Shown piece by piece: positions 10,169 to 33,974 of a stretch of 64,000 nt of DNA. The notes under the pieces are model-generated. The model did no database searches. It saw only the letters and a list, made by a program, of their open reading frames with translations, and had not been told where the DNA came from. Position numbers and translations under genes: made by a program. The stretch is from Tepidiformaceae bacterium (lineage in GTDB: Bacteria > Chloroflexota > Dehalococcoidia > Tepidiformales > Tepidiformaceae). The stretch's first letter is position 1; each line of letters begins with the position of its first letter. The stretch spans positions 1,403,289-1,467,288 of the forward strand of contig OY282446.1 in NCBI GenBank assembly GCA_958295975.1. The letters run 5' to 3'.

Positions 10169-10554
10169 GCCGTCTCGTCCGCCTCGTCCGGCGGCGCCAG
10201 GTCGGCGCGCAGCTTCCGCGCCTCGCGCAGGTAGACGTGGCGGATCTCGCGCGGCCCCGTCTCCGTGTTCACGTGCAGCAGGATGCGCACGCACTTCGCC
10301 AGACTGCCGGGCACGTTCATCTCGTGCCCGCAGAGCAGGGGCACGTGCTTCCAGCCCTCCAGCCGCCGCGTCGCCTCCGCCGGGAACTCCGCGTTCAGGT
10401 CCGGCGTGGTGGTGAAGTGCGCGGAGGCGACGTCGTCGGCGCGCACGCCGTTGGCCGCCACCATCGCCTCAAGCAGCTCGCGCGTTCCCTCGAGGATCGC
10501 CTCGCGCTCGTTCGCGCTCACGGTGATCGCCCCGCGGATGCCGCGAACGGTCAT
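10165..10554 (-). CDS. aroH: AroH-type chorismate mutase
   Basis: The 129-residue protein begins [17 protein letters not shown] and contains [18 protein letters not shown] and [21 protein letters not shown], the hallmark motifs of the trimeric AroH fold, with active-site arginines and the Cys-x-x-His-like region. It turns chorismate into prephenate for Phe/Tyr synthesis, competing with TrpE for chorismate. The ATG at 10554 overlaps the trpA stop; an upstream ATG at 10605 lies inside trpA and is less likely. Its place after trpA puts both chorismate branches in one transcript. Confidence 0.93.
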
Positions 10555-11369
10555 GCCCCGCTCCTCATGCGCGCTCCGTCGCGGCCGGTCATGCGCGCCA
10601 CGCACGCTCGCGCGCGCGCCACGCAGTCCTCCGCGCTGCCCCCGTCGATGGCCGCGATGATAGCAGAGCCCACCGCCACGCCATCCGCCATGCGCCCCGC
10701 CGCCGCCGCCTGTGCGGGCGTGGAAACGCCGAAGCCCACCACCACGGGCAGGCCGGTGTGCCGCCGGATGGCCGCCACGAGGCCGCCGATATCGGGCGAC
10801 AGCTCTGCCCGCTGGCCGGTCGTGCCCGTCACGCTCACGCAGTAGATGAAGGAGTCCGCCGCCGCCGCCACTTGCGCCAGCCGCGCCGCCGCCGTGGTGG
10901 GCGCGACCAGGGGCACGTAGCCGACGCCGTGGCGCGCGCAGGCCGCGCGGAAGGCCCCGCCCTCCTCCGGCGGCAGGTCCACCACGATGAAGCCGTCCGC
11001 GCCCGCCGCCGCCGCGTCCGCCGCCGCCCGCTCCTCGCCGTAGGCCAGCAGGGGGTTGTCGTAGCCCATGAACACGAGCGGGGCCGCCAGCCCGCGCGCC
11101 CGCGCCTCGCGCGCGAACCCCAGGCAGTCCGCGAAGGTCACGCCCGCGGCCACCGCCGTCTCGTTCGCGCGCTGGATGGTGGCGCCGTCCGCCAGCGGGT
11201 CGGTGAAGGGCACGCCCAGCTCGATCACGTCCGCCCCGCCCTCCTCCAGCGCCAGCAGCAGGGGCACGGTGCGCCCGGGCGCGGGGTGCCCGGCCATGAG
11301 GTAGGCCACGAAGGCCGCCCGTCCCTCCGCCCGCGCCGCCGCGAAACTGGCCCGCAAGCGCTCGGACAC
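10551..11369 (-). CDS. trpA: Tryptophan synthase alpha subunit
   Basis: The 272-residue TIM barrel shows [10 protein letters not shown], the catalytic glutamate in [26 protein letters not shown], the aspartate in [12 protein letters not shown] and [15 protein letters not shown], all TrpA signatures. It cleaves indole-3-glycerol phosphate to indole, which tunnels to TrpB. The GTG start is 2 bp after the stop of the CPBP protease gene, which separates trpA from trpB, an uncommon arrangement. Its stop overlaps aroH. Confidence 0.95.
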
Positions 11370-11371
11370 GG

Positions 11372-12100
11372 CTACGCCTCCGTCGCCAGCAGGATCGAGA
11401 ACCCGATCGCGTTGAACAGCACGTGAAAGGCCACGCTCTCCCAGAGGTCGCCGCGCCGCCAGAACAGCCACGCCAGCGCCACCCCGATGATAAAGAACGG
11501 AATGAGGCTGCCCACGTCGAAATGCGCGGCGCTGAAGATCGCCCCCGACAGGATGGCCGCCGGCCAGAAGCCCCGCTGCGCCAGCCCGCCGAACAGGAAC
11601 CCGCGGTAGAACACCTCCTCCGCCAGCGGGGCCAGCGCCACCGCCGACACCCCCGCCAGCGCCAGCGTCGCGGGCGCGAGCGCCACCTCCTCGGGAAGCG
11701 TGCTGCGCGGTTCGAGCGCGGAGAGGTCGAGCGCCTCCACCACGGCCCCGTAGGCCGCGAGCATGGCGTAGCAACCCACCAGCGCCGCCAGCGGACGCCA
11801 GAGCGCGCGCGCGCGGAAGCGGGTCAGCCCCAGCGTCGCCGCCAGCCGCCCCGGCCCCCGCCGCGTGAGCAGCGCCACCAGCCCCAGCAGCGCCACGTTG
11901 AAGGCGATGGTGACGCCCAGGCCGAGGCTGAGCGCCGCCGTCGACCGGCCGTCCTCCTCCGCGTCCAGCCCCGTGGCCGCCGCCGTCGCGACCAGCGCGA
12001 CGATCGTGAGCAGCAGCAGGGTCGCCGCCGCCAGCAGCCCGACCGCGGCGCGCCGCGGCCCCCAGGGGAGCGGCCAGGCGGGGGCGGCGGGCGCGCTCAG
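11372..12100 (-). CDS. CPBP-family intramembrane metalloprotease (CAAX protease-like) inside the trp operon
   Basis: About 242 residues with roughly seven hydrophobic segments. The family motifs are present: [16 protein letters not shown] (EExxxR), [11 protein letters not shown] (H) and [11 protein letters not shown] (HxxxN/xxN). CPBP proteins are membrane-embedded proteases; bacterial ones act in bacteriocin immunity, signalling or unknown roles. No ATG or GTG suits the start: the frame opens at a CTG overlapping the trpB stop (CTGA), which I use. The other option is a start inside trpB. The gene sits between trpB and trpA, which are normally adjacent. What it has to do with tryptophan is unknown. 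Confidence 0.8.
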
Positions 12101-13281
12101 AGCGTGACGCCCAGCGCGTCGGCGACCGTGTGCATGTCCTTGTCGCCGCGCCCGCTCAGCCCGATGAGCACGTCGCCGCCCGCGCCGATCTCGCGCGCCA
12201 GCCGCAGCGCCACGGGGATGGCGTGCGCGGGCTCCAGCGCGGGGATGATGCCCTCGCTCCGCGTCAGCCGCTGGAACCCCTCGAGCGCCGCCGCGTCGTC
12301 CACGGCCACGTACTCCGCCCGCCCGCTCGCCTTCAGCCACGAATGCTCCGGCCCCACGCCCGGATAGTCGAGCCCGGCGGAGATGCTGTGCGTGTCCAGA
12401 ATCTGCCCCGCGCCGTCCTGCAGCAGGTAGGTGCGCGCGCCGTGCAGCACGCCCGGGCGGCCCGCCGCCAGCGTGGCCGCGTTGCGCCCGGGCGCGTCCA
12501 GCCCCTCGCCCGCGGCCTCCACCCCCACCAGCCGCACGGGGTCGTCGAGCAGCGGGTGGAAGAGGCCGATGGCGTTGCTGCCCCCGCCCACGCAGGCCAC
12601 CGCCGCGTCCGGCAGCCGCCCCGCCCGCTCCAGCATCTGCGCCCGCGCCTCGCGCCCGATGACGGACTGGAAGTCGCGCACCATCGTGGGGAAGGGATGC
12701 GGGCCGATGGCCGAGCCGATCAGGTAATGCGTGTCGCGCACGTTCGTCACCCAGTCGCGCATGGCCTCGTTGATGGCGTCCTTGAGCGTGCGCGCGCCCG
12801 TGTCCACGGGCATCACCTCCGCGCCCAGCATCTTCATGCGGAACACGTTGAGCGACTGCCGCCGGATGTCCTCGGTACCCATGTAGACCGCGCACTCCAG
12901 CCCCAGCATGGCGCACACGGTGGCCGTGGCCACGCCGTGCTGGCCCGCGCCCGTCTCCGCGATGACGCGCGGCTTGCCCAGCCGCTTCGCCAGCAGCGCC
13001 TGCCCCAGCGCGTTGTTGATCTTGTGCGCGCCCGTATGCGCCAGGTCCTCGCGCTTCAGCCAGAGGCGCGCCCCGCCCGTCTCCTCCGTCAGCCGCCGCG
13101 CGAAGGAGAGCGGCGTGGGGCGGCCCGCGTAGTGCCGCCCCAGCTCCTCCAGTTCGGCGGCGAAGGCGGGGTCGCGCCGCGCCGCCGCGTACGCCTCCTC
13201 CAGCTCCTCGTGCGCCGCCACCAGCACCTCGGGCACGTAGCGCCCGCCGAATTCGCCGAAACGCGCCGCCGCATCGCTCAT
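12097..13281 (-). CDS. trpB: Tryptophan synthase beta subunit
   Basis: The 394-residue PLP enzyme has [14 protein letters not shown] at the N-terminus, [18 protein letters not shown] with the PLP-binding lysine, [31 protein letters not shown] (phosphate loop) and [13 protein letters not shown] near the C-terminus. It joins indole and serine to make tryptophan. This is the standard TrpB1 form that pairs with TrpA. The ATG overlaps the trpF stop by 4 bp. Confidence 0.97.
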
Positions 13282-13994
13282 CGCGCCGCTCCTTTCGCCG
13301 CGCGGATGAACGCGCGCACCTTGTCCGCGTCCTGCGCGCCGTCCGTCTCCACGCCGCTGGAGACGTCCACCGCCCAGGGCCGCGCCGTGGCGATGGCGCC
13401 GGCCACGTTGTCCGGCGTGAGCCCGCCCGCCAGCATGATCGGCAGCAGCCGCCCCGCCTCCGCCGCCACGCTCCAGTCGAAGGCGAGGCCCGTGCCGCCG
13501 CGCGCCGCGCCCGCGTCCGTGTCCAGATGGATGCCCGCCGCCGCGCCCGGAACCGCCGCCGCCAGCACGTCCGCCGCCGCCGTCTGCGGGCCCACGTGCA
13601 CCGTGCGCAGCACGGGGCGGCGCATGAGCCCCGCGAAGGCCTCGTCCTCGCCGCCCGACAGCTGGATCAGGTCGAGGTCCGCCGCCTCCGCGATGGCGTT
13701 CACCTCGTCCGCGCCCTGGTCGGCGAACACGCCCACGACCAGCGGACGCCCGCGCCCGAGCGCGCCGTCGATGGCCGCGTTCCAGTCCGCGAACCAGTCC
13801 GCGCCGCGCTCCGGCCCCTCGATGCGGACCGCCGCCGCGCCGCCGCGCGCGGCCCCCGCGATGTCGCGCCCCCCGGCGGGCGACGCCCGCCGCCGCGAGC
13901 GGGCGAAGATGATGCCGATGAAGTCGGCCCCCGCCGCCGCCGCCGCGCGCGCCGTGGCGGCCTCGCGCACGCCGCAGATCTTGACGCGCGTCAT
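13278..13994 (-). CDS. trpF: Phosphoribosylanthranilate isomerase
   Basis: The 238-residue barrel begins [17 protein letters not shown], with the catalytic Cys in KICG, and has [41 protein letters not shown] and the phosphate-binding [11 protein letters not shown] plus [11 protein letters not shown] with the catalytic Asp. It converts PRA to CdRP. A stretch of about 25 Ala/Gly/Arg-rich residues near position 45 is a little longer than usual. The ATG overlaps the trpC stop. Confidence 0.95.
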
Positions 13995-14800
13995 CGCGCC
14001 ACGCCCCGCAGCTCCGCGATCATGGCCGCCGGATCGGGCGCGCGCATGAGCGCCTCGCCGACGAGCACGGCGGTCGCCCCCGCAGCCTCGAAGCGCGCCA
14101 CGTCGTCGCGCCCCGCGATGCCGCTCAGCGCCGCCAGCAGCGCCCCCGCGGGCGCGCCCCCCGCCAGCCGGTCGGTCGTCGACAGGTCCACCTCGAAGCT
14201 GCGCAGGTCGCGGTTGTTGATGCCGATCAGGCGCGCCCCCGCCGCCGCCGCGCACGCCATCTCGGCGGCGGCGTTCACCTCCACCAGCGCCTCCATGCCG
14301 AGCTCGCGCGCGCACGCCAGCAGCCGCCCCAGCGCCCCGCCGTCGAGGCAGGCCGCGATCAGCAGGACCGCGTCCGCCCCGTGCGCGCGCGCCTCCAGCA
14401 GCTGGTACTCGTCGATGAGGAAGTCCTTCCGCAGGAGCCCCGGGCGCGCCGTCCCCAGCCCGTCCACCGCCGCGCGCGCCTCGCGCAGGTCGTCCAGCGA
14501 GCCCTTGAACCAGACCGGCTCCGTGAGCACGGAGACGCCCGCCGCGCCGCCGCGCGCGTAGCGCAGTGCCTGTTCGGCGGCGTCGGCGTCCGGCGCGATG
14601 TCGCCCTTGCTGGGCGAGGCGCGCTTGATTTCGGCGATGACGGCGGGCGGGTCGTGCGCCAGCCGCGCCGCGAAATTGATGGGCGCGGGCGCGCGGTTGG
14701 CGGCGCGCAGCAGCTCGCCCGCGGGGCGCGCCGCCTTCGCCGCGGCCACGTCCTCGCGGCGTTTCGCCACGATCTCGCCGAGAATGCCCGGCCCGCTCAC
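13991..14800 (-). CDS. trpC: Indole-3-glycerol phosphate synthase
   Basis: The 269-residue barrel has [15 protein letters not shown] (catalytic Glu and Lys), [34 protein letters not shown] (second catalytic Lys), [23 protein letters not shown] and a final [14 protein letters not shown] phosphate site. It closes the indole ring in tryptophan synthesis. The GTG start overlaps the trpD stop (GTGA), as for its neighbours. Confidence 0.96.
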
Positions 14801-15813
14801 GCCGCCTCCCGCGTCAACCGCACGTAATGCTCCATGACCGCGCGCGCGCGCCCGGAGGCGATCGCCTCCCGCGCGAGCGTCGCGCCCTCCGCGAAGCTTT
14901 CCGCCAGCCCCGCCGCCCAGCACCCCGCCGCCGCGTTCAGCGTCGTGAACGCCGCCGCCGCTCCCCCCGCGCCCGCCAGCACGGCGCGCAGCGTCTCCGC
15001 GTTCTCCTCCGGCGAGCCGCCCGCCACCTCGTCGAGCGCGCAGCCCTCCAGCCCGAAGGCGGCGGGCGTCAGCTCCTCCTCGCGCACCGCGCCGTGTTCG
15101 AGAATCCAGGCGGCGGTGGGCGCGGCGGGGCTGATTTCGTCCAGCCCGTCCGCCGAATGCACCACCACCGCGCGCTCCAGCCCGCGCAGCCGGAACGCCT
15201 CCGCGAAGAGCGGCCCCAGCCGCGCCGCGCCCACGCCCGTGAGCTGCGCGCGCGGTCTGGCCGGGTTCGAGATCGGCCCCAGCACGTTGAAGATGGTGCG
15301 CGTTCCCAGCTCCCGCCGCGCCGCCGCCGCGTGGCGCATGGCCGGGTGCAGGCGCTGGGCGAAGAGGAAGCCGAAGCCGCAGGCCTCGACGATGCGCGCC
15401 ACCGCCTCGCCGCCGAGGTCGATGCGCGCCCCCAGCGCCTCCAGCAGGTCCGCCGAGCCGCAGCGCGAGGAGGCCGCGCGGTTGCCGTGCTTGGCCACGC
15501 GCGCCCCCGCCCCCGCCGTCACGAACGCCGCCGCCGTCGAAACGTTGAAGGTGTCCGCCCCGTCCCCGCCCGTGCCGCACAGGTCGACCGCGCCCTCCAC
15601 CGCCACGGGCTCGGCGTGGCGTTCCAGCGCCTCCCAGCAGGCGGCCACCACGGCGGGCGTCTCGCCGTGCGCGCGCATGCCCGCGAGGAAGGCCCCGATC
15701 TGCGCCTCCGTGGCCTCGCCCGCCATGATCTCCTCGAGCGCCGCCGCCGCCAGCGCGGGCTCGATGCCGCCGCCGTCCAGCAGCGCCGCGATGGCCGCGC
15801 GCATGGCCGTCAC
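14797..15813 (-). CDS. trpD: Anthranilate phosphoribosyltransferase
   Basis: The protein (338 residues from the GTG, 335 from the internal ATG at 15804) has the TrpD motifs LCGTGGDGADTFNVST, ARVAKHGNRAASSRCGSAD and IFNVLGPISNPARP, and VVVHSADGLDEIS. It transfers phosphoribose to anthranilate. I prefer the GTG because it overlaps the trpG stop (GTGA) like the other junctions in this run, but the ATG three codons later is equally compatible with the protein family. Confidence 0.96.
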   Translation of the reverse strand: MTAMRAAIAALLDGGGIEPALAAAALEEIMAGEATEAQIGAFLAGMRAHGETPAVVAACWEALERHAEPVAVEGAVDLCGTGGDGADTFNVSTAAAFVTAGAGARVAKHGNRAASSRCGSADLLEALGARIDLGGEAVARIVEACGFGFLFAQRLHPAMRHAAAARRELGTRTIFNVLGPISNPARPRAQLTGVGAARLGPLFAEAFRLRGLERAVVVHSADGLDEISPAAPTAAWILEHGAVREEELTPAAFGLEGCALDEVAGGSPEENAETLRAVLAGAGGAAAAFTTLNAAAGCWAAGLAESFAEGATLAREAIASGRARAVMEHYVRLTREAA

Positions 15814-16394
15814 CGCCAGCTCCCGCCGCGCAGGCCGAGGAAGTTCCGCAGCAGCAGCTTGCCGTGCTCGGTGGCGATCGATTCGGGGTGGAACTGCACG
15901 CCCTCGACCGTGTGGCGCGCGTGCCGCACGCCCATCACCACGCCGCTCTCCGAGCGCGCCGACACCGTCAGCTCGGCGGGCAGGCTGGCCGCGTCCGCCG
16001 CCAGCGAGTGGTAGCGCACCGCCGTGAAGGGATCGGGCAGCCCCGCGAACACGCCCCGGCCGTCGTGGCTGATGGACGAAGTCTTGCCGTGCTTGATCTC
16101 GCCCGCGCCCTCCACGCGCCCCCCGAACGCCTCGCAGATGCACTGGTGGCCGAGGCACACGCCCAGCACCGGCGCGCGCCCCGCGAAGCGCCGCGCCAGC
16201 TCCGTCGAAAGCCCCGCCCCCGACGGCCTCCCCGGCCCCGGCGAGATCACCACCCGCTCCGGGGCCAGCGCCTCGCACGCCGCCACCGTCGTCTGGTCGT
16301 TGCGCCGCACCTCCACCTCCTCCCCCAGCTCCGCCAGGTACTGGTAGAGGTTCCAGGTGAAGCTGTCGTAGTTGTCGATGAGCAGCGTCGTCAC
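15810..16394 (-). CDS. trpG: Anthranilate synthase glutaminase subunit (TrpG/PabA)
   Basis: The 194-residue class I amidotransferase shows LLIDNYDSFTWNLYQYL, VVISPGPGRPSGAG, the nucleophile Cys in VLGVCLGHQCI, and the His-x-Glu pair in VEGVQFHPESIATEHG. It supplies ammonia to TrpE. Because no separate pabA is present, it could also serve p-aminobenzoate synthesis, as in many bacteria, although the CADD protein nearby may replace that route. trpE itself is about 14 kb upstream beyond the LRR gene. Confidence 0.94.
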   Translation of the reverse strand: MTTLLIDNYDSFTWNLYQYLAELGEEVEVRRNDQTTVAACEALAPERVVISPGPGRPSGAGLSTELARRFAGRAPVLGVCLGHQCICEAFGGRVEGAGEIKHGKTSSISHDGRGVFAGLPDPFTAVRYHSLAADAASLPAELTVSARSESGVVMGVRHARHTVEGVQFHPESIATEHGKLLLRNFLGLRGGSWR

Positions 16395-16723
16395 CGGTCC
16401 AGCGTCCCTTCCGCGGCGAGGTCCGCCGCCACCTCGCGCAGCACCGCCGCCAGCTCCTCCGGCGTGCAGCCGTAGCCCCGCCGGTCCAGCCGGAACTTGG
16501 CGGCCAGGTAGGCCGCGTCGAACGCGCCCGGCGCGCGCAGGTCGAGCGGGTAGGCCGTGCCCGGCTCCCCCAGCAGCGTCACCAGGAAGTAGCCGTCGCC
16601 CGCGCCCCGCGCGTAGGCCGCCGTTTCCCGCAGCAGCGGCACGAGCGCTAGGTCGATGCCGTCCGCGCGGTAGAAGCGCGCGGCCACGTGCGAGACCTCC
16701 TTGGCCAGCGCCGCGCCCCTCAC
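16391..16723 (-). CDS. Small protein of unknown function before trpG
   Basis: The 110-residue protein starts at a GTG overlapping the HAD gene stop and its own stop overlaps the trpG start, so it is co-translated. It contains HVAARFYRADGIDLALVPLLRETA and a C-terminal EELAAVLREVAADLAAEGTLD-type helix. I recognise no family and see no signal or membrane segment. Consistent coupling on both sides supports it as a real gene. Confidence 0.65.
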   Translation of the reverse strand: MRGAALAKEVSHVAARFYRADGIDLALVPLLRETAAYARGAGDGYFLVTLLGEPGTAYPLDLRAPGAFDAAYLAAKFRLDRRGYGCTPEELAAVLREVAADLAAEGTLDR

Positions 16724-17373
16724 GGCGCGGCCTCCGCGAGGGCCCGGACGTGCGCGAGCGCGTCCGCCGGACGCCCGGCCAGCAGGTCGGGGCCCGCCGC
16801 GCGCAGCCGTTCCGCGTCCAGCGTTCCCCACGCCGCGCCGATGGCGTGGCAGCCCGCCGCCCGCGCCGCCTCCACGTCCGCGGGCGAGTCCCCCACGTAG
16901 GCGATCTCGCGCGGCTCGTCGAGCGCCAGCCGCTCCATGGCCGTGAAGAGCGGCTCCGGCTCCGGCTTGTGCCGCTCGCAATCGTCCGCGCCCACCACCG
17001 CCGCGAAGCGGTCCAGCAGCCCCGTGCGCGCCAGCTCCGCCGTCGCCCCCCACGACACCTTCGAGGTCACGACCGCCAGCTGCAGGCCGCCCGCGCGCAG
17101 GGCGTCGAGCGCCTCCGTCACGCCGGGGAAGGGCGCGATGGGCGCTTCCCGCTCGTAGTAGCGCTCGCGGTACGCCTCCACGAAGCGCATCCAGCCGTCG
17201 CCCAGCAGCCCCCGCGCCAGCGACTCCAGCGTATGGCCGTTGTGTTCGCGCCAGAGCGCGAACGCGTCCGCGCGCGTCCCCAGGCAGCGCTCGTGGGCGT
17301 GCGCGAGCGCCTCCATGCGCCAGGGCGCCGTCTCCAGCAGGGTGTCGTCCAGGTCCCAGAACACGGCCCTCAC
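16720..17373 (-). CDS. HAD-superfamily phosphatase (PpaX/Gph-like)
   Basis: The 217-residue protein has the HAD motif I FWDLDDTLLE (DxD nucleophile), motif II VVTSK, the conserved lysine in ERHKPEPEPLF and motif IV YVGDSPADVEAARAAG, with an alpha-helical cap between motifs I and II. This is HAD subfamily IA, typical of phosphoglycolate or pyrophosphate phosphatases; the substrate cannot be told from sequence. The GTG start overlaps the stop of the nudix-CMD gene. Confidence 0.88.
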   Translation of the reverse strand: MRAVFWDLDDTLLETAPWRMEALAHAHERCLGTRADAFALWREHNGHTLESLARGLLGDGWMRFVEAYRERYYEREAPIAPFPGVTEALDALRAGGLQLAVVTSKVSWGATAELARTGLLDRFAAVVGADDCERHKPEPEPLFTAMERLALDEPREIAYVGDSPADVEAARAAGCHAIGAAWGTLDAERLRAAGPDLLAGRPADALAHVRALAEAAP

Positions 17374-18221
17374 GGCCCCCCTCCCGGCCGCGGCACGCCC
17401 CGCTCGGCGAACACCTCCTCCATCACGGGCCAAGCCGCCAGCGCCGCCGGAAAGCCCGCGTAGACCGCCACCATGCGCAGCGTCTCCACCACCTCTTCGG
17501 GCGCGGCCCCGTGGTTGAGCGCCCCGTTCAGGTGCGAGCGCAGCTGCGCCGGACGCCCCGTGAGCGCCGCCAGCATGGCCACCACCTGCAGGCTGCGCGT
17601 GCGCCGGTCCAGCCGCCCGTTCCCCCACACCTCGCCCAGCGCGAAATCGACGACGTCGTCCGCCAGTTCGGGCGCACGCGCGCGCAGGTCCGCGTGCCGC
17701 GCGTCCGCGTCGCCCCCGCCCGAAAGCGTGCGCAGCACGTCGCGCCCCGCCTCCCGCCGCGAGGCGAAGGGGCCGTCCGCGTCCGTTTCGCGCCGCAGCG
17801 CCGCGAGGATGGCGGGGCCGTCGTCGCGCGGCGGCGCCAGCCCGAAGGCCGCGAGCACGGCCTCGCGCACGCGCCCGTCCATGTCCAGCCCCGCCAGCTC
17901 GGCGGGCGCGCGCCAGCTCAGCTCCGCGCCGTCCGCCGCCCGCGGCTCGCCCGTCCACGCGCTCGTGGCGTAGAGGTTGCGGACCGCGCCCTCCGGCCCC
18001 GCTCCGGCGGGCGGCAGCAGCGTCTCGCGGAAGGCCCCGGCGATCCCGTCCACGGCCACGCCCAGCTCCGCGAGGATGGCCGCCATGCCCGCGTCCACGT
18101 CCGCGTGCTCCGGCGCCAGGTCGCCCCCCGGCAGCGCCCAGCGCGACGCCCCGCGCTCGCGCCGCAGCAGGAGTTTGCCCTCCCGCTCCAGTATCGCCGC
18201 CAGGTGGATGCGCTGCGCCAT
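17370..18221 (-). CDS. Fusion of a degenerate Nudix domain with a carboxymuconolactone decarboxylase-like domain
   Basis: The 283-residue protein has two parts. Residues 1-125 look like a Nudix fold (HLAAILEREGKLLLRR, WALPGGDLAPE), but the Nudix box keeps little beyond GG..P.E and lacks the REUxEE catalytic glutamates, so hydrolase activity is doubtful. Residues 165-283 match the CMD family: RTRSLQVVAMLAALTGRP, HLNGALNHGA, EVVETLRMVAVYAGFP. CMD proteins decarboxylate aromatic lactones or act as AhpD-like enzymes; no AhpD CxxC is visible. I know of no standard enzyme with this pair. It starts the trpG-tyrS run, with a likely promoter 15 nt upstream. Confidence 0.82.
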   Translation of the reverse strand: MAQRIHLAAILEREGKLLLRRERGASRWALPGGDLAPEHADVDAGMAAILAELGVAVDGIAGAFRETLLPPAGAGPEGAVRNLYATSAWTGEPRAADGAELSWRAPAELAGLDMDGRVREAVLAAFGLAPPRDDGPAILAALRRETDADGPFASRREAGRDVLRTLSGGGDADARHADLRARAPELADDVVDFALGEVWGNGRLDRRTRSLQVVAMLAALTGRPAQLRSHLNGALNHGAAPEEVVETLRMVAVYAGFPAALAAWPVMEEVFAERGVPRPGGGP

Positions 18222-30434: not shown

Positions 30435-31913
30435 TCAGCGCGCCCGCGCCGCCGCCGCCAGCTCGGCGCGGTCGATGGCCCGCTCCAGCGCCAGCATCTT
30501 GTTCACGCTCTCGCGGTACTCCGCCGCCGGCTCCGAGTCGTAGACGATGCCGCCGCCGGCCTGCAGCCACGCCTGCCCGTCCTTCACCACCATGGTGCGG
30601 ATGGCGATGCAGGTGTCGAGCGCCCCCGCGAAGCTGGCGTAGCCCACCGCGCCCGCGTAGACGCCGCGCCGCTCGCGCTCCAGCGCGGCGATGATCTCCA
30701 TGGCCCGCACCTTGGGCGCGCCCGACACCGTGCCCGCCGGAAAGACGGCGCGGAAGGCGTCGAAGGGCGTGCGGTCGGCGCGCAGCCGCCCGGACACGCG
30801 CGAGACGAGGTGCATCACGTGCGAATAGCGCTCGATGCCCATGAGCTGGTCCACGCGCACGCTGCCCGCCTCCGCCACGCGGCCCACGTCGTTGCGCCCC
30901 AGGTCCACCAGCATGATGTGCTCGGCGCGCTCCTTCTCGTCCGCCAGCAGCTCCGCCGCCAGCGCCTCGTCCTCCTCCGCCGTGGCCCCCCGCGGGCGCG
31001 TGCCCGCGATGGGATGCGTCGTCACCACGCCGTCCTCCACGCGCACCAGCATCTCCGGCGAGGCCCCCACGATCTGGAAGCCCCCCAGATCGAGGTAGAA
31101 CATGTAGGGCGACGGGTTCACCGTGCGCAGCTGCCGGTAGATGGCGAAGGGATGCGCCGTCACGGGCCGCCGGATGCGCTGCGAGGGCACGGCCTGGATG
31201 ATCTCCCCCGCGATCACGTCCGCGCGGATGCGCTCCACCATCAGCTCGTAGCCCTCGCGCCCCACGTTGGAGACGCCCGCCGCCCCCCCCGCGCCCGCCC
31301 GCGCCAGCGCCGCCGCGTCCTGCGCGGGCGCCGCCAGGGGCCGCTCCAGCCGCGCGGCGATGGCGTCGATGGTCTCCGCCGCGCGCCGGTACTCGGCCTC
31401 CACGTCGCCGTCCAGGCGGCAGTGCGCCAGCACGCGGATGGTGTGGCGCAGGTGGTCGAACACCACCAGCGAGTCGCACAGCAGGAACATGGCCTCGGGA
31501 ATGCCCACCGGATCGGCCTCGTTGGCGGGCACGCGCGGCTCGAAGTGGCGCACGGCCTCGTAGGCCACGTAGCCCACGGCCCCGCCCGTGAGCCGCGGCA
31601 GGCCGGGCAGCTCCACCACTTGCAGCCCCGCCAGCGCCGCCTCCAGCGGGATCAGCGGATCGCCCTCGTGCTCCTCCCCCGGCCCGGTGCGGATGACGCG
31701 CCGCGGGTTCGCCCCGATGAAGGAGTAGCGCGCCAGCCGCTCGCCGCCCTCCACCGACTCCAGCAGGAAGGAATGGCCGCCCTCGCGCACCTTCAGGTAG
31801 GCGGACACGGGCGTCTCCAGGTCCGCCGCCAGCTCGCGCGACACGGGCAGCAGGTTGCCGCGCCCGGCCCCCGCCAGCGCGCGCGCCTCCTCCAGCGTGG
31901 GCTGGTGGCTCAC
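30435..31913 (-). CDS. trpE: Anthranilate synthase component I
   Basis: The 492-residue protein has the N-terminal feedback region (HSFLLESVEGGERLARYSFIG) and the chorismate-binding domain: [89 protein letters not shown]. With TrpG it makes anthranilate from chorismate. The LLES and NPSPYM segments are those that form the Trp feedback site in TrpE. The GTG start overlaps the trpS stop. As last gene of the T-box operon it is expected to be induced when tRNA-Trp is uncharged. Confidence 0.96.
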   Translation of the reverse strand: MSHQPTLEEARALAGAGRGNLLPVSRELAADLETPVSAYLKVREGGHSFLLESVEGGERLARYSFIGANPRRVIRTGPGEEHEGDPLIPLEAALAGLQVVELPGLPRLTGGAVGYVAYEAVRHFEPRVPANEADPVGIPEAMFLLCDSLVVFDHLRHTIRVLAHCRLDGDVEAEYRRAAETIDAIAARLERPLAAPAQDAAALARAGAGGAAGVSNVGREGYELMVERIRADVIAGEIIQAVPSQRIRRPVTAHPFAIYRQLRTVNPSPYMFYLDLGGFQIVGASPEMLVRVEDGVVTTHPIAGTRPRGATAEEDEALAAELLADEKERAEHIMLVDLGRNDVGRVAEAGSVRVDQLMGIERYSHVMHLVSRVSGRLRADRTPFDAFRAVFPAGTVSGAPKVRAMEIIAALERERRGVYAGAVGYASFAGALDTCIAIRTMVVKDGQAWLQAGGGIVYDSEPAAEYRESVNKMLALERAIDRAELAAAARAR

Positions 31914-32941
31914 GCGCGTCCGCGCGCGGGGGGCGGCCCCGCCAGGTAGTCCACCTCCAGCGCCTCGCGCACGAGCGCCATGGTCTCGCGCGCCCGCGCC
32001 CGCGCCCGCGCCGTGCCCGCCTCCAGCGCGTCGCGCACGCCGTCCATGTGCGCCTCGTGGTGGGCGCGCCGCTCGCGCATGGGGTCGAGCAGCGCGTTCA
32101 GCGCGCGCGTCAGCTTCTCCTTCACCTCCACGTCGCCCACGCGCCCCTTCGCGTAGCGCTCCTTCAGGTCGGCCACCTCGTCCGCGTCCGGGTTGAAGGC
32201 GTCGTGGTAGAGGAACACGGGGTTGCCCTCCACATGCCCCGGGTCCGTGGCGCGCAGGCGCGTGGGGTCGGTGAACATGCCGCGCACCTTCCGCGCCACC
32301 GTGTCCGCGTCGTCCCCGAGGTCGATGGCGTTGCCGAGCGACTTGCTCATCTTCGCGCGCCCGTCCAGCCCCACCAGCCGCGGCACGCGCCCCACCAGCC
32401 CCCGCGGCTCCGGGAAGACCTCGCGGAACTGGCGGTTGAAGCGCCGCGCCAGCTCGCGCGTCATCTCGATGTGGGGCATCTGATCCTCCCCCACGGGCAC
32501 CAGGTGCGCGCGCGGCATGAGGATGTTCACCGCCTGCATCACCGGGTAGGTGAAGAAGGCCACGGGCGCGGAGCGCTTGCCGAACTCCGCCAGCTCCGCC
32601 TTCAGCGTGGGGTTGCGCTGCAGCATCCCCAGCGGCAGGAACCAGCTCAGCCACGCCCCCAGCTCGGCGTGCTCCGGCACGAGGCTCTCGATCACGAAGC
32701 AGCTCTCCTCCGGGTCCAGCCCCACCGCCAGCCAGTCCAGCGCCACCTCCCACACGGACTCGCGCACGCGCGCGAAATCGTCGGCGTAGTCCGACACCTG
32801 GTAGTCGGCGATGAGGAAGTGGCAGTCGTACTCGCGCTGCAGCCGCAGCCAGTTCTCCAGCGCGCCCGCGTAGTGGCCCAGGTGCAGCGGCCCCGTGGGG
32901 CGGATGCCGGTGAGGATGCGCTCGCGCTCGCCCCCGCCCAT
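31910..32941 (-). CDS. trpS: Tryptophanyl-tRNA synthetase
   Basis: The 343-residue class I synthetase begins ERILTGIRPTGPLHLGHYAGAL, with the HIGH-type HLGH, and has LVPVGEDQMPHIEMTREL, the KMSKS loop AKMSKSLGN and a helical C-terminal domain. It charges tRNA-Trp. I chose the ATG at 32941, 7 bp after the CADD stop; an ATG at 32965 would add eight residues and overlap CADD. Control by a Trp-specific T-box upstream fits this gene exactly. Confidence 0.95.
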   Translation of the reverse strand: MGGGERERILTGIRPTGPLHLGHYAGALENWLRLQREYDCHFLIADYQVSDYADDFARVRESVWEVALDWLAVGLDPEESCFVIESLVPEHAELGAWLSWFLPLGMLQRNPTLKAELAEFGKRSAPVAFFTYPVMQAVNILMPRAHLVPVGEDQMPHIEMTRELARRFNRQFREVFPEPRGLVGRVPRLVGLDGRAKMSKSLGNAIDLGDDADTVARKVRGMFTDPTRLRATDPGHVEGNPVFLYHDAFNPDADEVADLKERYAKGRVGDVEVKEKLTRALNALLDPMRERRAHHEAHMDGVRDALEAGTARARARARETMALVREALEVDYLAGPPPARGRA

Positions 32942-32948
32942 GGCGCGC

Positions 32949-33641
32949 TCAGGCCGCCCGCCCATGGCAGCCGTCGAGGAAGGCCAGCAGCCGGTCCGCG
33001 GCCCGCGCCGCCGCCAGCGTCACGCCCTCGCCGTCCTCGCACAGCTCCCCGATGGCCGCCAGCTCCGCGCCCGAATGGGCCACGTCCGACACGAGGTGCA
33101 CGGAGAAGAACTCGAACTGGTCGGGCCGCAGGCCGTAGCGCTCGTTCAGCCCCTTGATCTTCTCCCAGGCCACGGCGGGCACCTGCGATTCGTAGGCGAA
33201 CAGCGCCGCCAGCGCCTCCGCCACGGGCGCGTTCGCCGCCGCCTCCGCGTAATGCTCCACCAGCGCCCGCGTCTGCGGATGCGGCTCGGATTCCTCCACC
33301 TCCGCGCGCGAAAGCCCCAGCGCCGCCGCGAACTCCAGCCACAGGGCGGGATGGTTGCGCTCGCCGTGCTCCTCGTCCCACAGGTTGTCCAGCAGCAGCT
33401 GGCGGATGGCGGGCGACTCCGTGCGCGCGTGGATGGCGCTCAGGAAGCGCGGGAAGGCCCGCTCGAAGTGGTAGTACTGCCGCGCGTAGTCCCGCAGCCG
33501 CTCCAGCTCCAGCGCGCCCTCGCTCCACGCCCGGTAGAAGGGATGGTCGAGCAGCGAGCGCTCCGCGATCGCCGCGCGCAGGCCCCGCTCCAGCGCGGAC
33601 GCCGTCTCCGTCTCCGTCTCCGTCTTCATCGTCGCCGTCAT
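32949..33641 (-). CDS. CADD-family di-metal protein, probable p-aminobenzoate synthase
   Basis: The 230-residue helical protein resembles Chlamydia CADD and the heme-oxygenase/PqqC fold. The ligand residues expected for the di-metal site are visible: Glu and His in NLWDEEHGERNHPALW, Glu in FAYESQVPA, and His-Asp-His in FFSVHLVSDVAHS. The HPFYRAW motif holds the tyrosine matching CADD Tyr27, which in chlamydial CADD is consumed to form p-aminobenzoate (established for that protein). The length is close to CADD (231). The ATG at 33641 has GGAGG about seven bases upstream; the longer frame to 33716 would run into the T-box terminator. It is first gene of a Trp-responsive operon. Confidence 0.85.
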   Translation of the reverse strand: MTATMKTETETETASALERGLRAAIAERSLLDHPFYRAWSEGALELERLRDYARQYYHFERAFPRFLSAIHARTESPAIRQLLLDNLWDEEHGERNHPALWLEFAAALGLSRAEVEESEPHPQTRALVEHYAEAAANAPVAEALAALFAYESQVPAVAWEKIKGLNERYGLRPDQFEFFSVHLVSDVAHSGAELAAIGELCEDGEGVTLAAARAADRLLAFLDGCHGRAA

Positions 33642-33667
33642 TGCGCCCTCCGCATCGCGATTTGCCG

Positions 33668-33698
33668 AAAAAAAGCCCCGTCCCTGTGAAGGACGGGG
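33668..33698 (-). terminator. T-box regulated terminator
   Basis: A perfect 8-bp stem CCCCGTCC / GGACGGGG with a 7-nt loop is followed by seven T on the minus strand. The 5' arm follows directly after the T-box sequence, as needed for the alternative antiterminator. It ends about 26 nt before the CADD start codon. Confidence 0.9.
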
Positions 33699-33940
33699 GA
33701 ACCCCCGCGGTGCCACCTTCGTTCCCCGGCCTTCGCCGGAGCGCTCGGCGAGCGGCCCGCCATGACGGAACGCTCCGGGCCGCTAACGGCGCCCCCGCCG
33801 CCCCCGCCTACGCACCGCTTCCGGCTTCGGCGGGAGAGCTCCCGGGACCATTCGCCGCGTACGCCCCGCCGGACTTCCACCGTCTCCGGCTCGCTGCGGG
33901 GGCCGTCCGCGCGGCTACTCTCCCCGATCGTCGCTTCCGC
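33668..33940 (-). ncRNA. T-box riboswitch leader, Trp specifier (UGG)
   Basis: The minus-strand leader has the T-box element AAGGTGGCACCGCGG (33705-33719) just before the terminator. Stem I features are visible: GAGAGTAG (AGUA motif, near 33914-33921), a distal GGTGGAAGTCCGG loop motif, and a specifier loop GAA-TGG-TC followed by CCGGGAGC. The specifier codon at 33848-33850 reads UGG, tryptophan. Uncharged tRNA-Trp (anticodon CCA) should pair there and at the T-box bulge, prevent the terminator and switch on CADD-trpS-trpE. The specifier matches the downstream synthetase, which supports the reading. Confidence 0.93.
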
Positions 33941-33945
33941 GATTA

Positions 33946-33974
33946 AGCGTAGGGGGCGCGTTCCCCACGGTCAA
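33946..33974 (-). promoter_or_regulatory. Sigma-70 type promoter of the T-box operon
   Basis: On the minus strand TTGACC (33969-33974) and TACGCT (33946-33951) are separated by exactly 17 bp. The -35 overlaps the stop codon of the upstream hydrolase gene. Transcription should begin near 33939, just before stem I of the T-box. This is the only promoter in the window where I see both hexamers clearly. Confidence 0.7.

Follow-up and report, generated by a model that had tools for sequence, protein, structure and literature searches.

The window analysed here, a 64,000-nt stretch of a contig from a Tepidiformaceae bacterium (an uncultured relative of Tepidiforma, which is known from hot springs), carries on its minus strand a series of tryptophan genes that is led by a gene for a CADD-type protein and preceded by a structured leader (Table 1). 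The gene order CADD-trpS-trpE, which an earlier note had read from the sequence, was borne out by three TIGRFAM profiles, each scoring over its cut-off. The three genes are closely packed: the CADD gene has a ribosome site (GGAGGG) at 33651-33646, the trpS start, at either 32965 or 32941, overlaps or abuts the CADD stop codon, and the GTG start of trpE overlaps the stop of trpS. Beyond trpE, a 12-kb gene for a leucine-rich-repeat (LRR) protein sits between trpE and the remaining operon. In relatives from the same genus, the gene for a protein with Nudix-like and carboxymuconolactone-decarboxylase (CMD) domains lies within about 60 nt 3' of trpE at all eight loci, none of which has the LRR gene at this position, and HAD, the 98-aa protein, trpG and trpD come next, each at seven of the eight loci (at the eighth, the contig breaks off within the Nudix gene). 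The same gene series resumes in the window only after the LRR gene. Given that trpE and the Nudix/CMD gene are no more than about 60 nt apart in all eight relatives, the giant LRR gene looks like a lineage-specific insertion into a biosynthetic operon.

Table 1. Genes and regulatory features of the T-box-CADD-trp locus in the window.
Feature	Position (nt)	Strand	Basis
Promoter TTGACC (33974-33969), 17 nt, TACGCT (33951-33946)	33946..33974	-	Sequence, genus conservation
Tryptophan T-box leader (Stem I, Stem II, Stem III, antiterminator)	33686..33940	-	RF00230 and covariation, 19 leaders
Specifier codon UGG (Trp), context GAA-UGG-U-CCC, 3' of conserved GAA	33848..33850	-	Sequence and RF00230 alignment
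T-box bulge UGGC, complementary to GCCA end of tRNA-Trp	33712..33715	-	Sequence
Intrinsic terminator, 8-10 bp hairpin and seven U	33668..33698	-	Terminator search
CADD-type self-sacrificing p-aminobenzoate synthase (putative), 230 aa	32949..33641	-	TIGR04305 226.9 bits, cut-off 200
trpS, tryptophanyl-tRNA synthetase	31910..32965	-	TIGR00233 254.1 bits, cut-off 176.75
trpE, anthranilate synthase component I	30435..31913	-	TIGR00564 561.6 bits, cut-off 517.7
Leucine-rich-repeat protein, 3997 aa	18284..30277	-	Pfam LRR
Nudix-like and carboxymuconolactone-decarboxylase-domain protein	17370..18221	-	PF02627; Nudix part read by eye
Conserved 98-aa protein, directly before trpG	16394-16687	-	Position in genus relatives
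trpG (part)	15903..16394	-	TIGR00566 191.3 bits, cut-off 121
trpB, canonical	12097..13281	-	TIGR00263 606.2 bits, cut-off 392
trpD, trpC, trpF, trpA around trpB	about 10551-16278	-	ORFs recognised by eye

The earlier note had described the leader as a T-box with an AGUA motif, a UGG specifier and a terminator. The Rfam T-box model RF00230 matched the minus-strand leader over its whole length (model positions 1-219) with 53.8 bits and an E-value of 3.8e-11, or 5.3e-11 when the same match was scored over the 2.40-Mb genome, and placed UGG in the specifier position. The AGUA motif, specifier, bulge and terminator all lay where the earlier note had put them. The score is below the RF00230 gathering score of 93 bits, which is a curation threshold and corresponds to no anatomical feature; for this reason a scan at the gathering threshold missed the leader and gave only a tRNA. 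When the RF00230-derived structure was imposed on 19 aligned leaders (that of the window, eight from its genus and ten from its family), 93.9% of cells were paired and double-sided changes were seen in 23 of the 47 pairs, with none of 500 shuffles reaching either value, while shifting the structure by 1-3 columns lowered the pairing to 38-56%. Folded alone, the window leader was no more stable than shuffled sequences (z 0.22), so that single-sequence folding was dropped as a proof of structure, and the support for the T-box comes from the family model together with covariation. Over a wider set of 29 leaders, the specifier is UGG in 28 (the 29th is truncated by a contig end) and the variable bulge base is C in 28, with U in L124. 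The base 3' of the specifier is U in the window and a purine in most relatives. Matches of the leader to other RNA families (anti-hemB, ClpQY promoter, tfoR and asponA) fell below their own cut-offs and were discarded as chance matches.

The terminator, CCCCGTCC-TTCACAG-GGACGGGG followed by CTTTTTTT (33698-33668), was the single one found in a scan of the leader, against 0.2 expected from shuffles, and its 5' arm is also the 3' strand of the antiterminator, such that the two structures overlap. A column-wise count of terminator pairs across leaders gave 60.5% paired, equal to shuffles and without covariation support; this count fails because the register of the hairpin shifts between leaders. 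A separate search of each leader, which reports the best candidate in every case, gave a hairpin for all 29; the majority have a T-rich tail, and a few hairpins are weak. Upstream, the promoter proposed in the earlier note was likewise seen, with its -35 element overlapping the TGA stop codon of the preceding alpha/beta hydrolase gene. The pattern TTGACC-17-TA[C/G]GCT is kept in 9/9 genus members, and a strict sigma-70 scan did not list the leader promoter (0 found). At the other end of the leader, only 27 nt separate the U tract from the CADD ATG, and transcription of CADD must therefore pass the terminator. An internal promoter for CADD in this genome was ruled out, since the 27-nt gap leaves no room for one.

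The pairing partner expected from the leader is present in the genome, which has 44 tRNA matches. Its tRNA-Trp(CCA) ends in GCCA (discriminator G73), which complements the UGGC bulge, a pairing that the earlier note had named as a check, and the UGG specifier fits both this tRNA and the amino acid of the operon (trpS, trpE). Of the 44 tRNAs, 38 were checked; CCA is encoded at the predicted end of 35 of them, and G73 occurs in seven of these 35. Two further T-boxes were observed in the genome, one before a gene read as thrS (L002:1501-1714, minus strand) and one before a gene read as ileS (L003:1501-1555, plus strand). The former has a specifier read as ACC and a UGGA bulge, and tRNA-Thr(CGT) has U73; the latter has a UGGU bulge, and tRNA-Ile has A73. 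Thus the three T-boxes found have three different bulge bases and three matching discriminators (Trp C-G73, Thr A-U73, Ile U-A73). A leader that is a decayed or chance resemblance with no T-box function would fit the score under the curated cut-off and the U after the specifier. Given the covariation, the conserved promoter, the matching discriminator and a terminator with seven U, this is very improbable, and the leader is confirmed as a full-length tryptophan T-box.

The first gene of the operon encodes a protein that the earlier note had called a probable CADD protein making p-aminobenzoate (pABA), an assignment in line with its TIGR04305 score, its residues and the rest of the genome. In the pertinent passages of PMC11965152, the sacrificial residues of Chlamydia trachomatis CADD are Tyr27 and Lys152, and each active site yields at most one pABA. 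These two map to Y36 and K161 in the window CADD, which also has a second essential tyrosine, Y52 (equivalent to Tyr43); the residue numbering follows the relevant parts of PMC11965152 and PMC13108848, with Tyr43 equated to Tyr41 of NePabS. The relatives of the window CADD in the PDB are 9pj4, 1rcw and 8va9, the best being 4-aminobenzoate synthases. We take its metal ligands to be E90, H97, E151, H182, D186 and H189. Across the class, 53 CADD sequences were surveyed (52 loci and the window): Tyr36 and the six metal ligands are invariant (53/53), Lys161 is kept in 48, Y52 in 50, Phe at position 178 in all 53 and Tyr at position 150 in 45.

Profile searches of the genome found neither PabB nor PabC. 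There are two chorismate-binding enzymes, TrpE and the isochorismate synthase MenF (TIGR00543, 316.6 versus 224.75 bits; followed by a gene read as menD), a single class-IV aminotransferase, IlvE (TIGR01122, 332.4 versus 245.55 bits), and two DHPS matches. Profile, catalytic residues and the absence of PabB/PabC together identify the window CADD as a putative pABA synthase, which would be expected to produce pABA.

Five CADDs of the family have no sacrificial lysine, with valine in its place in G309, G162 and G338 and threonine in G077 and G304 (genes L127, L129, L131, L128 and L130, respectively). The same five genomes encode an additional enzyme that scores over the cut-off of the PabB model (333-369 versus 328.4 bits), whose partner class-IV aminotransferase is adjacent in G077 and G304 and fused in G162, G338 and G309. 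Thus pabB and pabC are present in 5/5 genomes with a Lys-less CADD versus 0/23 others (Fisher p 1e-5, a value behind which stand few independent events because the five CADDs form one clade, with support of 96/93). Elsewhere, a third chorismate-enzyme match in G118 is a split operon trpE, and G271 has a second aminotransferase alone. The two kinds of pabB are 43-46% alike over their shared core, and this low likeness together with the different architectures suggests that pabB and pabC were gained twice. That the lysine is lost only where pabBC is present speaks for CADD as the supplier of pABA in the other members of the family. Three of the five Lys-less CADDs also have Y52 replaced by F, while Y36 and all metal ligands are kept, and their genes remain in the T-box operon; from this retention of residues and operon place, these proteins may have another product.

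These observations bear on a different reading of the gene, in which the CADD relative is a tryptophan-pathway oxygenase of the same fold and no pABA synthase. Its place among trp genes and away from folate genes would suit such an enzyme, and heme-oxygenase-like enzymes with tryptophan substrates exist, AetD being one according to the part of PMC10654658 that concerns it. The presence of the sacrificial Tyr and Lys, Y52 and all six metal ligands, the 4-aminobenzoate synthases as best structural relatives, the missing PabB/PabC and the loss of Lys in step with pabBC presence all argue for a pABA synthase, and we consider the oxygenase improbable. Two genomes count against a simple account in which CADD supplies the pABA. 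In G195 (97% complete), the T-box operon and two DHPS matches are present, and both CADD and pabB/pabC are missing; in G173, the CADD gene is broken, with no additional chorismate enzyme in the genome. At L214 (G195) and L217 (G353), the operon has no CADD between trpB2 and the helical protein gene, two genes of the family operon that are described below.

The association of T-box and CADD extends across the family. CADD scores over the TIGR04305 cut-off in 53 of 393 class genomes, 28 of them Tepidiformaceae, and a T-box precedes the CADD operon at 27 of these 28 family loci, the contig of the 28th (G328) starting inside trpB2. An RF00230 match was found at the operon position in at least 26 of the 28, with the T-box position of G328 and G338 falling at a contig end in the covariance search, and ten of the 26 score above 93 bits. 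The order T-box-CADD-trpS-trpE is found in nine genomes of the window's genus and in G271. In the other 17 family genomes, the T-box lies ~1.4 kb upstream of CADD, and trpS follows a gap of ~450 nt; in the 15 of the 17 that were inspected, trpB2 and the gene for a helical protein fill these spaces, and from the spacing G141 and G206 probably carry both as well. The commonest order in the family is thus T-box-trpB2-CADD-helical protein-trpS-trpE. The trpB-like gene trpB2 passes TIGR01415 (694.8 versus 518.85 bits); it is missing from the window's genome, in which the sole match is the canonical trpB. The helical protein between CADD and trpS (L116:3732-4271, minus strand, 180 aa) has orthologs at 15 named family loci and a weak Pfam match to 23S_rRNA_IVP that is below the cut-off; the window's genus no longer has its gene in the operon. 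Judged from this distribution, CADD is an old member of the predicted Trp regulon in Tepidiformaceae. This conservation, the continuation of the operon with the rest of trp and the coupling of pabBC to the lost lysine go beyond what the earlier note had described.

Outside the family, a T-box lies before CADD in one of 25 class genomes, some of the stretches ending at contig ends. In this genome, G055, a Trp T-box of 91.3 bits stands directly before CADD, with trpS and trpE further downstream on the same strand. Of 80 named CADD loci, 24 have trpS and trpE, all of them from the family, and the T-box motif is present in 23 of these, L156 being cut; at the remaining 56 the motif is absent upstream of CADD. 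L163 has one imperfect match to the motif, downstream of CADD. The T-box-CADD link may have had one origin or more: in the tree, the G055 CADD, flagged as a long branch, does not group with those of the family. The CADDs L105, L117 and L123 from the family f2 branch among those of Tepidiformaceae and lie outside any T-box operon, a placement that suggests transfer.

Taken together, these data make it highly likely that a transcription-attenuating tryptophan T-box controls the CADD-trpS-trpE operon, with CADD as a single-use pABA synthase. Uncharged tRNA-Trp(CCA) would bind the leader through base pairs of its anticodon with UGG and of its free GCCA end with the UGGC bulge. The antiterminator would then form, and polymerase would read into CADD-trpS-trpE. 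Charged tRNA-Trp would leave the terminator in place. In relatives without the interruption, the controlled operon would run on to trpG and trpD. T-box control of CADD is well supported, and we infer from it that tryptophan could set the supply of pABA or folate; the rise in folate precursor that the earlier note had predicted for uncharged tRNA-Trp would follow from this anatomy. Since one CADD polypeptide gives at most one pABA, the leader would, where PabB/PabC are missing, set the amount of pABA and not the enzyme level alone, and vitamin supply thus appears tied to tryptophan supply.

It is also quite plausible, at somewhat under an even chance, that the T-box serves trpS-trpE while CADD rides along, its dose hardly mattering because read-through covers a tiny folate need. 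The first gene in most family members is trpB2, so that CADD probably held an internal place until the window's genus lost trpB2, and CADD occurs without a T-box in 24 of the 25 genomes outside the family, some of these stretches being cut by contig ends. Against such incidental membership, T-box and CADD have stayed together throughout the family and are found together again in G055, which belongs to a different family and has a CADD not grouping with those of Tepidiformaceae, nothing else can drive CADD in the window genome, and a single-use enzyme makes dose matter. The explanation in which the T-box controls CADD as such has in turn the three f2 CADDs against it, which show no T-box although they lie inside the family's branch.

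A broader scenario, which we put forward tentatively and would not expect to hold in full, is that pABA and folate in Tepidiformaceae are metered by uncharged tRNA-Trp at one molecule per translated CADD, such that plentiful tryptophan would bring pABA limitation, and that two lineages escaped through the gain of PabB and PabC, with CADD afterwards losing the sacrificial lysine but keeping its place in the operon. The scenario predicts that tryptophan feeding limits pABA or folate in strains without PabBC, and the combination of pabBC presence with loss of the sacrificial Lys would provide a natural experiment. The known targets of T-boxes are amino acid genes and tRNA synthetases; at this locus, one would govern a single-action enzyme of a cofactor precursor, for which transcriptional control comes close to metabolite dose. 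The locus also shows self-sacrificing pABA synthases in a genomic setting that is new for them, in a family that includes the cultured genus Tepidiforma. The relevant part of PMC10284905 describes cultured Tepidiforma strains as strict aerobes, which fits an O2-dependent route to pABA. A loose parallel may be drawn with iron-starved C. trachomatis, in which, according to the pertinent passages of PMC5811630, the CADD gene and trpBA both rise.

No paper joining T-box and CADD was present among the top-ranked literature matches; the surveys of Vitreschak 2008 and Gutierrez-Preciado 2009 were outside this scope, and an earlier mention there is possible. Like the transcriptional T-boxes of Bacillota as described by RF00230 and in passages on TBDB (PMC7778990), the window leader has a Stem I, a specifier, a UGGN bulge and an antiterminator/terminator pair; it differs in being GC-rich and in scoring below the curated cut-off. 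That T-boxes occur in Chloroflexi, as the earlier note stated, holds, whereas its view of how much was already known of Trp T-boxes in the phylum was an underestimate: Wels et al. 2008 (PMC2494555), in the passages dealing with Dehalococcoides, place Trp T-boxes upstream of trpE and of a trpB-like gene. Those share with the present case the phylum, the specifier amino acid and the targets trpE and a trpB-like gene, but the same passages mention no CADD or folate gene, whereas in the window CADD comes first and trpS is part of the operon. Putative CADD-family members in Chloroflexi are mentioned in a passage of PMC11965152. With the CADD of C. trachomatis and NePabS of N. europaea, as characterised in the relevant sections of that paper, the window protein shares TIGR04305, the sacrificial Tyr/Lys and the metal ligands, and its metal-side aromatics, Y150 and F178, are a mix of those in the two characterised enzymes. 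The genes for CADD and NePabS are found close to folate genes or glyA, whereas the window gene lies in a trp operon under a tRNA-sensing leader.
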